Shown piece by piece: positions 57,259-64,000 of a stretch of 64,000 nucleotides of DNA. Made by a program: the position numbers and the translations under genes. Position 1 is the first letter of the stretch. Each line of letters begins with the position of its first letter. The notes under the pieces were generated by a model. It was not told where the DNA came from, made no database searches, and worked only from the letters and a program-made list of their open reading frames with translations. Origin of the DNA: Arthrobacter alpinus (lineage in GTDB: Bacteria; Actinomycetota; Actinomycetes; Actinomycetales; Micrococcaceae); assembly GCF_001445575.1 (NCBI RefSeq), contig NZ_CP013200.1, positions 2,046,001 to 2,110,000 on the forward strand, in the 5' to 3' direction.

Positions 57259-57600
57259 CTGGCCTCGAGCTTTCATGAAGCGCGATGTTTCGGGGGCCAC
57301 AGCTTGTCGGCTGTCTGACTAACCTGTCCTTGGCTATTGGTGCGACATTCTGTCCGCAGGCGCTGTTGGTGCAGAGATGACATGGACGTGGAGTTGGATG
57401 CTGGGCGTGAGTATCGACGCCGACGACAGACGCATGTGAATGCGCGACGACAGACATGGCGATCAAATGTTCCGTACTTCTCACGGATATCGTCGTAACC
57501 ACTGTCGGCAGGTTCCAGTCCGCGGATTGAAAAACGTGACGTCAAATGGAGTCGTAATCCACCCCGAACATGCCAAAACAATGACCAAATTTTCGCCCAA

Positions 57601-57740
57601 AAACGTGAGTAGAACGTGATATGACACTTCGGTGCACCCGGCAAAATAGTAAAACCGCAGATCAGAGCCACATTTTGTGCCCCGGGCGGTGCCCCGGGCA
57701 GGAATTGAGTCCACGGCCAAGAGAATCTCACCCTCTGGAT
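57601..57740 (+). repeat. composite repeat, copy B, with tRNA-end-like fragment
   Basis: AAACGTGAGTAGAACGTGAT (57601-57620) is followed by AGTAAAACCGCAG (57648-57660), TTTTGTGCCCCGGGC (57673-57687) and GGCCAAGAGAATCTCA (57715-57730), the same blocks found at 60.5-60.7 kb in a different order and with small insertions. The stretch 57159-58517 has no supported gene on either strand. Confidence 0.6.
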
Positions 57741-58517: not shown

Positions 58518-59471
58518 TCACCGGTTCCGGTAGTAGTCCTTCCAGATGAGGCGGTGGACGGGGATCTTGCGGGGAATGGAACGCAGCCCGGGAATGAACG
58601 GCAGCACGGTCAGCGCCAGCGAGAGGATCAGCATGACTGAGACCACCAGGATGTCGGCATTGGGTGAGGACTTGAATGGCTGGATCTGGTAAAAGAACGA
58701 GAAGAGCCACAGCCAAGACTGCCCCGGGGTGTTCCCTGTTTCATTCATTACCCCCCATTGGTCTCCCGTCAGGTGCGCTGTGGTGGCCAGATTGGAAAAA
58801 TAGCCGCCGTCGCCGAGGAACAGGATGGTGGGTGTGTAGTCCAGATTGTACGGCTGCCCCCCATTTTGAAGGACTCCGTCAAGATTTCCCTTGCTGGCCA
58901 TGGCCAGCAATGCCCCTGTCAAGGCAGGGACGGGCCCGTAGTTGCCTCTGGCGACGTGTGCCGGGTCGCCGTTGGGTGAGGCGGCCAGTGCGGTGGTGTA
59001 ATCGGCCGTCCATTTTGCCTGTTGATCGGCGGTGGCGGTGGTCCAGACAGTCAGAGCCGGCGGTGGGCTGGGCAGGGTCTTGAGTGGATTGATGACGAAG
59101 TCGTTGGCCGTGTCAATTGGAAGGCGCACGCCGGAGAGGGCCTGCAGGTCGATGAACCCGAGCTTTTGTGTGGCATCGGGCGTCGCGTTGTAGGGCGGGC
59201 CGTAGCCTGCCGTGTCGCTGGTCCCGCCCAATTCGGCGGTTGCGGTCGCGACGAAGTCCGACGGCGCCGCCGTGGCCCATGATTTCAATGTCACCCCCGG
59301 ATCGTCCGGGGAACTGAAAATTGCCGAGAGGCAGACCACCATAAGGCCAACGACGACGAGGCCAATGGTGAGTTCCTTGAACAGGTCGTAGTCCCGGACA
59401 CGTCCGTGCCAAGGCCGCCCGGCGATGTTGTCGCCTTTCCGCCACGACATCGGGGATGGGGTCCTGGTCAT
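58518..59471 (-). CDS. membrane partner of the cytochrome b, unknown
   Basis: A 317-residue protein. One membrane helix at about 33-54 (LTIGLVVVGLMVVCLSAIF), a large outside part (about 55-235) and two helices near the C-terminus (about 243-262 and 272-295). The gene overlaps the cytochrome b gene by ATGA, so the products likely form one complex. The last helices resemble the end of a cytochrome b C-terminal half, but the PEWY quinone motif of bc-type enzymes is absent and no heme-binding CxxCH is seen. I cannot assign a function. Confidence 0.7.
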   Translation of the reverse strand: MTRTPSPMSWRKGDNIAGRPWHGRVRDYDLFKELTIGLVVVGLMVVCLSAIFSSPDDPGVTLKSWATAAPSDFVATATAELGGTSDTAGYGPPYNATPDATQKLGFIDLQALSGVRLPIDTANDFVINPLKTLPSPPPALTVWTTATADQQAKWTADYTTALAASPNGDPAHVARGNYGPVPALTGALLAMASKGNLDGVLQNGGQPYNLDYTPTILFLGDGGYFSNLATTAHLTGDQWGVMNETGNTPGQSWLWLFSFFYQIQPFKSSPNADILVVSVMLILSLALTVLPFIPGLRSIPRKIPVHRLIWKDYYRNR

Positions 59472-60175
59472 GGCTGTTTCACCTCCGTGTCAGTACCACC
59501 GGTGGTTGCGTCTCGCAGCTGCGCGTCGGTTTCGGCCGCATCCAAGGGAGGGACCACACCATGGGCTCGCACCATCACGACGTGCAGTGCGACCACGGCG
59601 CCGACAGCCAGGGGCAGCAGCATGATGTGCCACATGAAGATCTGGCCCAGGTTGGCTACGTTGAACCATGCCCCGATGCCGACGGAATTCAGGGCGTCTT
59701 TCGCTTCAAAGGCAATCCACTGGGAGTCGAAGTTCGTCTGCAGCAGGTAGCCGGTAAACGCTGTCACGATGGAGACAAGGAATGCCACCATGCCGGTGAT
59801 CCAGGTCAGCAAGCGCCCTCCACGCCAGGCCGCCATCCAGAACTTGATCCACAGGTGGACGACCATGAACATGAAGAACAGTTCGACGCTCCACAGGTGC
59901 ACGCTGTTCACAAAGTGACCCAGGGAGGAGACGTGGTACCACTGGGGTCCGTTGAGGCTGAGCACTACCCCGGAGCCGATGATGAAGACCAGCCCGGCAA
60001 CGGCGCCCATCCCGAAGACGTAGGCCCAGGAGGCGACGTAGCTCGGTTGGTCCTCCGGCAACAGTTTGTCCGGGGGAAGATGCTTCAGGAACCAGCGTCG
60101 GGATTTGCCGGTCCATGTGTAGGCCCCGGTCCCCTCCACTTCCGGATCTGGCGAGGGGTTCTGGTGGGCGTTCAT
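59468..60175 (-). CDS. cytochrome b (b6-like, N-terminal domain)
   Basis: A 235-residue membrane protein with four helices. Two His pairs for two hemes are visible: HLWSVELFFMFMVVHLW in helix B, and WHIMLLPLAVGAVVALH in helix D. The start SWAYVFGMGAVAGLVFIIG is the first helix. This is the heme-bearing half of a cytochrome b6 without the C-terminal half in the same chain. Neither a Rieske nor a cytochrome c1/f gene lies nearby. It is coupled by ATGA to both neighbours. Confidence 0.88.
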   Translation of the reverse strand: MNAHQNPSPDPEVEGTGAYTWTGKSRRWFLKHLPPDKLLPEDQPSYVASWAYVFGMGAVAGLVFIIGSGVVLSLNGPQWYHVSSLGHFVNSVHLWSVELFFMFMVVHLWIKFWMAAWRGGRLLTWITGMVAFLVSIVTAFTGYLLQTNFDSQWIAFEAKDALNSVGIGAWFNVANLGQIFMWHIMLLPLAVGAVVALHVVMVRAHGVVPPLDAAETDAQLRDATTGGTDTEVKQP

Positions 60176-60419: not shown

Positions 60420-60910
60420 AGAAACTCAGGACTCTCATGCCAAAAGCCCCCGATGACCGTCAAAAACCGTTAGTTCCCAGAGGACTTCAGTTCAATGGCC
60501 TGGCTTGGCAGAAACAGTAAAACCGCAGGTCAAAGCCACTTCTTTTGTGCCCCGGGCCGGACTCGAACCGGCGGCCAAGAGAAACTCAGGATTCTCATGC
60601 CGACAGACATCGGTAGTCGCCAAAAACCTCCAATTTCTGGGGAAATTCAGGCCAGTGGAGTCCTTCGATATGCCATGATCTGCGGGTGTCTTTCGTTCAA
60701 AAACGTGAGTAAAACGTGACGAGGCCTTGCAGCGTAGCGCCGGAGCTGCTGTCTGACGGCGGTTTGCAGGTTCATCGGCATGGTCGTTGGCATGTCACTG
60801 GTTACGAATGGATGGAAAGTCGGTCAAATTCACCCTGTTAGCGGAACCGACAATAGAGTAGAGGCCGTATGAAATGCGATCGATTTGAGACGTTAAACTG
60901 CGAACTCAAA
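60420..60910 (+). repeat. composite repeat, copy C (first block in tandem)
   Basis: The AGAAACTCAGGA block occurs twice, at 60420 and 60580, each followed by CTCATGCC and GTCAAAAACC/GCCAAAAACC. AAACGTGAGTAAAACGTGAC is at 60701-60720; GGTTCATCGGCATGG and GGCATGTCACTGGTTA at 60769-60804; a degenerate AAACTGCGAACTC at 60895. The order is as in copy A. Non-coding; 60911-61401 after it shows no gene. Confidence 0.7.
60516..60580 (-). repeat. tRNA 3'-end-like repeat, copy 3 (best preserved)
   Basis: On the minus strand 60580-60547 reads a T-arm with a 5-bp stem (GCCGG/CCGGC), the loop TTCGAGT, and then an acceptor strand CCGGGGC followed by A. No matching 5' half lies within 100 bases, so this is a fragment and not a tRNA gene. 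It is followed by AGTAAAACCGCAG as in copies 1 and 2. Confidence 0.7.
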
Positions 60911-61401: not shown

Positions 61402-61803
61402 ATGGCTACATTGCGAATGTGTGATGAGAGACTGCCCGGAGCTGGGGCGTCGGAGCTGCCTGAGCTGTCCGGCCTGCCGGACGTCATCACAATGGAGGAA
61501 CTGATTCGGTGGCGCGTGCGTGAGGAAGTCGCACGCCACAACGCGCACGGCACTGCTAAATTCGGCAGACTGATCGAACTCTCCGCCACTGAGCGCGAGT
61601 TCAACGCTCACGGCCGACATGACTCCAGCCGAAAGGCCGTGAACTGGGAGCAGCAGGCTGACACAGCGGTGAGGGGTTTCGAACGGAATGCATTCTTCGT
61701 GCTGGTGGACGACCGGCAAGTTTGCAACCTCTCGGATGAGATTGACGTCCTGAAGGCTACCGAAGCCACCTTCATCAAGCTCATACCACTGGTCGGCGGA
61801 TGA
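61402..61803 (+). CDS. small protein with Gly-Gly C-terminus, partner of DUF4132
   Basis: A 133-residue protein starting MATLRMCDERLPGAG at an ATG behind GTGAGGA; a longer upstream frame lacks support. It contains ITMEELIRWRVREEVARHN, then a strand-rich C-terminal part, FFVLVDDRQV and ATFIKLIPLVGG, ending exactly in Gly-Gly. The pattern (strand, helix, late strands, -LVGG end) resembles beta-grasp proteins such as MoaD/ThiS or ubiquitin-like proteins, but this is inference. The stop overlaps the DUF4132 ATG (ATGA). I recall similar small proteins beside DUF4132 genes in actinobacteria. Confidence 0.7.
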   Translation: MATLRMCDERLPGAGASELPELSGLPDVITMEELIRWRVREEVARHNAHGTAKFGRLIELSATEREFNAHGRHDSSRKAVNWEQQADTAVRGFERNAFFVLVDDRQVCNLSDEIDVLKATEATFIKLIPLVGG

Positions 61804-64000
61804 GCGGCATGGCCGAAGCAATGGGGCGCATTGCAATGCCCGAAAGCCTGCGCATGCTTGCAGAGGAGCAACGTGATCAGTTGGTGGGATTCCTTGAGGC
61901 TCGGTATTCGGATTGGATCCCGGGAGGTCTGGACCGAGACGAGTACCAGCAGCGGTTCGCTCGCTACCTAGAGCAGCTCGAACCAATCGGCCTTAAGTGT
62001 GCATTCGCGCTCACCTTCAATCATGTGCACGAGCACAGATATGGCATCGCTGAAAGATACTACGAACCGCTGGGGATCCCCGACGGCCTTAAGCACATGC
62101 CGCCGCCGATCGTGCAAGCACTACTTGTCCTTTCGGGGCTCGCGCCGCTGGGCTGGGACGCCGAGGAGCTCGACTGGATGCTGTCCCACGTGCCTTACTC
62201 CCGCTACATTTTTCCGTCTTGGCGCAATGCTTTTCACGGGCCGATCGCCTCGCTGGAGCCCGCTGAACGCCGGAAAATCCCAACGGCGACCCGCCGGATG
62301 GAAGAAATGCTGCTCGTTGACTTCCCTGAAGGGCCAGGGCTCCATCTGGAAGTCCGAAAATTCAATGAACTGCTGCTTGAGGACGACAAAGAAGACGGCC
62401 GCATCCCGCTGCAATACGTGACAGATAGGGACGACATCGGCCCGCAGGTAAGCATGGTCATCCGGCCTATCATGCCCGAATACCAATCCGCCCACCTGCT
62501 TCTCTTCATGAGCGAGCTGACCGGCCCGAAGCCCACGATGAAGTGGAAACGAGCCGCGGAAACGCACGTCGCGCAGCAGCCCGCGGTACTGCTGGTCGCC
62601 CGCGCTCTGGTCGGCTTGGCTGCGGACCGGACACCGACGGCGGACCGTGGCGAGATCTCATGCCTTACCCCGCACTCCGGGGCAATCCTGCGCGCATCCC
62701 TCTGGCTGCTTGCCCTCCAGCCGGATGCGCCCGCAGATATCAGCCTCATTCGTGATGCGGCCGCCTACTTGGGGGCCGGCCACAACGGCAGGAACGGACT
62801 CTGCCGTTCCACAACCGGGGCCAACGCCGGGGTGGAAGTGCTGCTGGAGATCGCCAGGAGCCATGTGGACGCCACCACGGAAGTCGTCGGCGCTCTGACC
62901 CGGATCCGGGATGTGGTCAAAAACAAGAACCTGCACAAACGCCTTGTCAAAGTCGTCGACCAGCTCTCCGCTGAACGAGGTATCACTCCCTCGGAGCTGC
63001 TGGAAACAGCCGTTCCTGATCTGGGACTGGATTCGGAGGGCGCCAAAACCTTCGCAATCGACGGGTACACGGCAAGGGTTGCGCTCACTCAGGGAGCAAG
63101 GGGGCCCGCAGTAGCTCTGACCTGGTTCACTGTGGGTGACGAACCAGTGCCGGAGCCGGCCAAGCTAAAGAACACCCCGGAGCGGGACACTGTAAAACGG
63201 GCGATAAGCGAAGCAAGGAATGTCTTGGCCAGCCAGTGTCGCCGGATCGAACGGCTCATGGCTTACGACCGAGTGTGGACAGGCGCCGACTTCCGGAGCC
63301 GCTACCTGGAACACCCTGTCGTTGGAACCATCGCGCGCGGCCTGCTGTGGACCATCACCTCGCAGGAAAGCGAAAATTCTGGGTACCCTCGGCGTGCAGA
63401 CGGCGCTATCAGCTGGGAACTGGTTGATGCGGAAGGCAAGGCACACCGTATCGCCGACGACGCCGTCGTCGTGCTTTGGAAACCTTGGGAACGGAGTACC
63501 GGGGAAGTGCGCTCCTGGCGCTCATATCTCATCGAGCACCGGCTAAGGCAACCGTTCAGGCAGGTATACCGGGAACTCTATTTGCTGACGCCCGCTGAGC
63601 GAGAGACCAGACAGTACTCCAACCGGTTCGCGGCACACGTCCTTGATTATCCGCGGATGCAGGCCATTGTGAAGGAGCGCGGCTGGCATGGCACACAACT
63701 GGGACCTTGGGACGGCGGGCAGGACACCCAGCTGTATGTTGAGTTCGCCGATGAGCGGCTCAGGGCGGGGTTCAGTATCGAACTTCTCGAGCTCGACGAA
63801 GACCGCGCATCCCTGTGCTCAACCAACAGGTTATGGTTCGAGCGACTCATTGCCCCGGACACTTGGGAGTCCGTAGACCTGAATGATGTACCGCGTGGGG
63901 CATTCAGCGAAGCGATGCGTGACGTTGACCTATTTACCTCAGTGGCTGCAATCGCACCGGACCCGGACTGGACCGACCATCCGAACGGCCAAGTCAGGGA
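61800..64000 (+). CDS. DUF4132 family protein, cut by the window end
   Basis: The frame opens at ATG 61800, overlapping the previous stop, and is still open at 64000, giving 733 residues. There is no signal peptide. The region at about 475-510 reads RRIERLMAYDRVWTGADFRS followed by RYLEHPVV and ARGLLWTI, typical of DUF4132 (the domain in E. coli MolR). Before it are helical, repeat-like stretches (about 30-400) with no recognised domain. Biochemical function of DUF4132 is unknown. More genes of the system probably lie to the right. Confidence 0.75.
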   Translation, partial: MSGMAEAMGRIAMPESLRMLAEEQRDQLVGFLEARYSDWIPGGLDRDEYQQRFARYLEQLEPIGLKCAFALTFNHVHEHRYGIAERYYEPLGIPDGLKHMPPPIVQALLVLSGLAPLGWDAEELDWMLSHVPYSRYIFPSWRNAFHGPIASLEPAERRKIPTATRRMEEMLLVDFPEGPGLHLEVRKFNELLLEDDKEDGRIPLQYVTDRDDIGPQVSMVIRPIMPEYQSAHLLLFMSELTGPKPTMKWKRAAETHVAQQPAVLLVARALVGLAADRTPTADRGEISCLTPHSGAILRASLWLLALQPDAPADISLIRDAAAYLGAGHNGRNGLCRSTTGANAGVEVLLEIARSHVDATTEVVGALTRIRDVVKNKNLHKRLVKVVDQLSAERGITPSELLETAVPDLGLDSEGAKTFAIDGYTARVALTQGARGPAVALTWFTVGDEPVPEPAKLKNTPERDTVKRAISEARNVLASQCRRIERLMAYDRVWTGADFRSRYLEHPVVGTIARGLLWTITSQESENSGYPRRADGAISWELVDAEGKAHRIADDAVVVLWKPWERSTGEVRSWRSYLIEHRLRQPFRQVYRELYLLTPAERETRQYSNRFAAHVLDYPRMQAIVKERGWHGTQLGPWDGGQDTQLYVEFADERLRAGFSIELLELDEDRASLCSTNRLWFERLIAPDTWESVDLNDVPRGAFSEAMRDVDLFTSVAAIAPDPDWTDHPNGQVR

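Follow-up and report, generated by a model that had tools for sequence, protein, structure and literature searches.

Results

A small Gly-Gly-ended protein is coupled to a DUF4132 protein

The window (the whole stretch of DNA analysed, 64,000 nucleotides of the Arthrobacter alpinus genome) closes within a two-gene unit. Its first gene encodes a small protein that ends in Gly-Gly, and its second, much larger gene, here called the partner, runs past the edge of the window. The features are given below in window coordinates.

57591-57730: further repeat piece
60511..60719, no strand: repeat pieces left of the pair, matching a right copy beyond the window at 64946-65072
61402..61803, + strand: small protein gene (ubiquitin-like candidate), 133 aa, C-terminus FIKLIPLVGG
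61789..61800, + strand: codons of the C-terminal LVGG, with GG in 37 of 40 homologues
61800..61803, + strand: ATGA stop/start overlap, the partner ATG being 61800-61802
61800..64000, + strand, on to window coordinate 64385 (L002:3885): partner gene, 861 aa in total
63156..63686, + strand: DUF4132 (PF13569), partner residues 453-629, 140.5 bits against a cut-off of 27
about 64041-64352, + strand, beyond the window: DUF7737 (PF24879), partner residues 748-851, 120.3 bits against a cut-off of 27

The small gene is coding from 61402 to 61800, with its stop codon at 61801-61803, and its product ends in LIPLVGG. Two Paenarthrobacter homologues support the call of its start, since both align from the same methionine; they also end in PLVGG and carry an identical ATGA overlap. 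The initial annotation had described a 133-residue protein with an LVGG end whose gene overlaps a DUF4132 gene by ATGA, and the coordinates bear this out. DUF7737 lies beyond the window and was therefore invisible to that annotation. Pfam, NCBIfam and PADLOC yielded no match to the small protein and the sequences of solved structures (PDB) no significant one, and none of 15 members of its family matched the ThiS/MoaD sequence family of Pfam at E values up to 1.

The neighbourhood had been called a repeat-rich boundary, and repeat pieces do occur on both sides of the pair, at 57591-57730, 60511-60719 and 64946-65072. The stretch at 60490-60730 matches the genome at 19 places, its own among them. 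To the eye the repeats resemble the T-arm and acceptor at the 3' end of a tRNA, and they bound the pair together with the 3 kb that precede it; ARAGORN reported no tRNA in them. The repeats may be traces of small cargo units inserted one after another. Two minus-strand ORFs (58518-60175) that lie between repeats one and two resemble, by eye, the two parts of a cytochrome b. As the initial annotation had proposed, the DNA to the right of 64000 was read, and it holds the end of the partner gene at 64385, DUF7737, the right-hand repeat, and HipA-like and transposase ORFs. The HipA-like ORF (L002:7378-8280, minus strand) looks cut short by insertion, because it ends at the two transposase ORFs (L002:6281-7425, HTH_Tnp_1 and rve); the segment L002:6281-8280 corresponds to 66781-68780 in window coordinates, beyond the window. 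The ORF on the far side of this region has no Pfam match.

The pair is accessory and occurs in four phyla

Among 98 searched relatives, A. alpinus included, the small gene was found in the A. alpinus genome alone, and it is therefore accessory. Profile searches of Actinobacteria in three draws recovered it from 9 of 296, 19 of 396 (among them 8 sister proteins that have no partner and one weak match, G370) and 31 of 383 genomes. Within the last draw, 28 matches reach the C-terminal end at E < 1e-15; 27 of these genomes are also in the list of DUF4132 genomes, and in the 28th (G584) a DUF4132-like ORF adjoins the small gene. The remaining three genomes gave weak N-terminal matches, two of which (L195 and L196) look like internally deleted remnants, the other being G765. 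G705, one of the 27 genomes, has only a truncated small gene ending in SGG with no adjoining partner, and the DUF4132 gene for which it is listed is a short one elsewhere. By tblastn on plasmid records and by reading the genes upstream of DUF4132, we were able to find the small gene in Nonomuraea, Novosphingobium, four Deinococcus records and Bacteroides. The pair occurs in Actinobacteria, Deinococcota, Alphaproteobacteria and Bacteroidota, with the phyla other than Actinobacteria sampled through plasmid records only.

Internal deletions recur at several loci (L195, L196, L129, L023 and L193), either within the small gene or reaching from it into the partner, a pattern suggestive of frequent decay of the pair.

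An accessory unit of this sort could be cargo with a role in conflict, either an anti-phage or a toxin-antitoxin-like system. Its patchiness among the relatives, its position between repeats, with a HipA-like gene and transposase ORFs close by, and the frequency of internally deleted copies would all be expected of such cargo. However, PADLOC gave no match for three of the four proteins submitted, and for the fourth, a Deinococcus partner, only OloA at E 0.32; the A. alpinus partner had no match among phage records, and the viral contigs yielded nothing beyond one 20-residue match (L117). Moreover, the pair in D. radiodurans is controlled by DNA damage, and the partner is still expressed when its small gene is deleted (available text of PMC8533742 and PMC9650054). 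We therefore consider a conflict system improbable.

The small gene is associated with DUF4132 proteins that have a C-terminal DUF7737 extension

We counted 71 DUF4132 ORFs, each of at least 250 aa, in 67 loci, some genomes giving several; the DUF profile used was built mainly from proteins of the small-gene type. The small gene adjoins 35 of the 50 ORFs that carry a C-terminal extension, compared with 2 of the 21 that do not (Fisher P 3e-6 as counted, the ORFs not being independent). Of these two, one lies at a contig end (L082) and in the other (L144) the gene is split into two ORFs. Pfam DUF7737 was present in every extended ORF scanned. As for the 15 extended ORFs with no small gene beside them, the genome or record holds one elsewhere in 13 cases; the other two are G664 and an Acetobacter plasmid record, in which the small gene is absent from the stretch read. 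At one further locus the small gene stands beside an ORF of DUF7737 alone, which may be a decayed copy. Long-type partners carry DUF5724 as well, and HEAT repeats score under the cut-off in them.

The distance matrices of the small proteins and of their partners correlate at r 0.88 over 32 pairs, a value reached by none of 2000 shuffles and to which shared ancestry contributes. There is good support for the two proteins forming a module. DUF4132 proteins in general were also considered as the partner, and this was rejected, the link being confined to the clade with the extension.

The initial annotation had asked, among other things, whether E1-like, MoxR or VWA genes recur in DUF4132 neighbourhoods, and beside the pair these did not. 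Queries with E1-like ThiF proteins found none at 64 loci. The AAA, VWA and SWIM genes belong to the other DUF4132 clade, whose 14 loci include AAA (9), DUF5682 (9), VWA (4) and SWIM (2); in the extended clade a single AAA gene was seen at 50 loci, at a locus (L133) where the other clade is represented by a gene too. A MoxR/VWA system was accordingly rejected as a reading of the pair. Elsewhere in the genome, ThiF-family enzymes are encoded in 10 of 10 genomes with the pair and ThiS/MoaD-family genes likewise in 10 of 10; their presence says little, because 12 and 11 of 14 control genomes, respectively, carry them too.

The C-terminal tail is conserved, with informative exceptions

Of 40 small proteins from these loci, 37 end in GG, and 11 of 13 do so after clustering at 60% identity. 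As to the choice of loci, a set of 40 was picked by hand from the places in the DUF4132 list, mainly for long frames, leaving out short DUF4132 proteins (about 290-380 aa). Of the other complete called genes at the 67 loci only 3 in 474 encode a GG end; the GG ending of the small proteins exceeds chance. The tail has the pattern L-x-x-L-x-G-G, and in 34 aligned rows V39, L127, L130 and G132 are invariant, whereas G133 varies.

The initial annotation had asked whether the small gene and its terminal GG are conserved. The gene is, standing beside DUF4132 in four phyla, and so for the most part is the GG, although it is lost in two of the 40 proteins, which end in TGRY (locus L027) and SGRLW (locus L051), and both precede long-type partners. 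The third exception (L143) is an in-frame fusion of an incomplete small protein, its GG now internal, to DUF4132; this copy may have decayed. The initial annotation had held that a missing terminal GG would count against its reading, and the GG is missing too from 8 of 8 partnerless sister proteins of an actinobacterial family (f32). These eight are one lineage and therefore represent one event, not eight. A search for DUF4132 in their 8 genomes, 4 of which are just 80-92% complete, found none. This sister family (L066-L073, also L075, L079 and L080) shares the N-terminal half of the small protein. It is a natural comparison for the purpose of the GG.

How can the tail be so strongly conserved and yet differ in some members? 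One answer is that the small protein is a non-covalent subunit of the DUF4132-DUF7737 protein, permanent or regulatory. Its tail would then be a docking peptide that depends on L-x-x-L-x-G more than on the last residue, with neither activation nor conjugation taking place. This would fit residues L127, L130 and G132 being invariant and G133 not, the existence of GR-Y and GR-LW tails and of an in-frame fusion, and the fact that ThiF adjoins the pair at 0 of 64 loci. Docking alone, however, would not need an exact GG, and this is what 37 of 40 proteins have kept, internally deleted copies included. We hold this explanation to be possible but doubtful.

A second answer lies in the DNA rather than in the protein. 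The sequence GGNGG ahead of the coupled start might serve as the partner's ribosome-binding site, in which case the tail would need no glycine chemistry. In 31 of the 37 GG members the partner starts at most 8 bases from the last sense codon, and in both GR-ended members it starts about 40 bases later. The penultimate glycine codon is GGC in only 9 of 37, compared with 59% in partner genes, and the partnerless sister proteins have no GG. But the signal itself is GGTGG or GGCGG in 18 of 37, and these are poor Shine-Dalgarno matches. At L122, moreover, the small gene comes after its partner and keeps LVALVGG with no coupled gene following; L126 and the fragment in G705, which are maybe remnants, keep GG with no coupled gene either; and the leucines ahead of the GG are fixed as well. 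As the whole explanation, a translation signal has little credence with us.

The fold of the small protein

The initial annotation had likened the C-terminal half of the small protein to MoaD, ThiS and ubiquitin-like proteins. An AlphaFold prediction of the small protein from three rows reached a pLDDT of 41.8, and a prediction for the C-terminal 416 residues of a homologous partner reached 47.2; neither was good enough for a fold search. Profile comparison with MoaD/ThiS scored 13.2, with shuffles scoring up to 19.4; for the C-terminal half the score was 14.2, and 5 of 200 shuffles scored equally high. Residues 98-124 align with the C-terminal half of MoaD, which is the expected place for a beta-grasp, though not above shuffles. 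A beta-grasp fold would agree with the I-TASSER model published for the D. radiodurans protein DRA0165, which is similar to MoaD-family structures including SAMP1 (PMC9650054, in its available text). We regard the small protein as likely, though unproven, to be ubiquitin-like in fold.

The Deinococcus pair suggests a probable link of the module to DNA damage and oxidative stress

The proteins DRA0165 (SEP068184) and DRA0166 of D. radiodurans are the same pair: the small protein ends in LTALAGG, and the next gene encodes a DUF4132-DUF7737 protein. We base this identification on the thioredoxin gene that the record shows ahead of the pair, as the available part of PMC9650054 says of DRA0164. According to the same part of that paper, the DRA0165 product increases after irradiation and peroxide treatment and binds Trx1, and deletion of DRA0165 raises survival of peroxide and leaves DRA0166 expression unchanged. 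DRA0166 is induced by mitomycin C in an IrrE-dependent manner, and a DdrO motif is listed upstream of drA0165 (both in the accessible text of PMC8533742).

We were able to locate a DdrO motif with one or two mismatches 72-92 bases upstream of the pair in 4 of 4 Deinococcus pairs. Upstream of DRA0165 it lies at L055:3810-3824 with one mismatch, in agreement with PMC8533742 and not with PMC9650054. The latter, in the text available, calls the small protein Deinococcus-only and the DdrO motif absent, and our data disagree with it on both points, as three other phyla have homologues and the motif is present. In none of 40 upstream stretches of 200 bases was there a LexA-like box with at most 2 mismatches. 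The literature searched, in the portions available and exclusive of preprints and most subscription papers, does not link the small protein and DUF4132 as a conserved module; within the same bounds, DUF5724, DUF7737 and their Pfam numbers are not mentioned.

Discussion

We propose that a small ubiquitin/MoaD-like protein and one dedicated large partner make up a two-gene module whose most probable setting is DNA damage or oxidative stress, a reading in which our confidence is about evenly balanced. The small protein would adopt a beta-grasp fold, and its tail would dock where the partner ends in DUF4132 and DUF7737; the N-terminal part of the partner may be a helical scaffold. Translational coupling would hold the two proteins in step. 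In the GG-ended majority, the last glycine could be activated in trans by the cell's MoeB/ThiF-type enzyme, and the small protein might then be transiently attached to, or pass sulfur to, the partner or a target that the partner presents. The strongest step of this scheme is the joint action of both proteins and the weakest is the chemistry, for which conjugation or sulfur carriage by the small protein may be considered as candidates. The GR-Y and GR-LW tails, the in-frame fusion, and the position of the GG codons at a possible ribosome-binding site argue against conjugation. D. radiodurans reportedly has a JAMM protease that cleaves MoaD-MoaE, and this protease is a candidate for an enzyme serving the pair in trans.

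A bolder version of this proposal, which we think rather unlikely, is that DUF4132-DUF7737 proteins are a new class that handles ubiquitin-like proteins (Ubls). Together with a GG-tailed Ubl they would then make a minimal, stress-induced conjugation or sulfur-relay system of two genes that borrows MoeB/ThiF, and DUF7737 would be an unrecognised Ubl-partner domain present in at least four phyla.

Pfam lists no function for either DUF4132 or DUF7737. A module that crosses phyla gives these domains, and a Deinococcus protein published as "genus-specific", a partner and a probable trigger, DNA damage. The pair may be an overlooked ubiquitin-like stress system. Should its tail prove to have a chemical use, it would count among bacterial ubiquitin-like systems as a simpler kind than the conjugation operons of Bil or CBASS.

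Comparison with known systems

What Bil and type II CBASS have in common with the present unit is the notion of a GG-tailed Ubl that works with operon partners. Their conjugation operons encode an E1-like enzyme of their own (PMC11354881 and PMC10449767, available text), whereas the present unit consists of two genes, none of them E1-like.

The DUF4132 domain is common to the pair and to the WGR-DUF4132 loci (for example Sinorhizobium L054), which carry AAA, DUF5682, VWA and SWIM genes. Those loci have neither the C-terminal extension nor the small gene, and their companion genes are absent at the present pair. A WGR domain is present in the Sinorhizobium protein and in neither the A. alpinus nor the D. 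radiodurans partner; E. coli MolR/YehI is presumably of the WGR-DUF4132 type.

Within the module itself, the D. radiodurans partner differs from that of A. alpinus in its 1626 aa and its DUF5724, and the pair there is under DdrO control.

Like MoaD, ThiS, CysO and archaeal SAMP1, the small protein is short and ends in GG, and the I-TASSER model published for its orthologue is similar to them (PMC9650054, as far as its text was available). It differs from these proteins in being longer (about 130 aa), in its lack of a significant profile match, in that ThiF does not adjoin it, and in having a DUF4132-DUF7737 protein as its partner.
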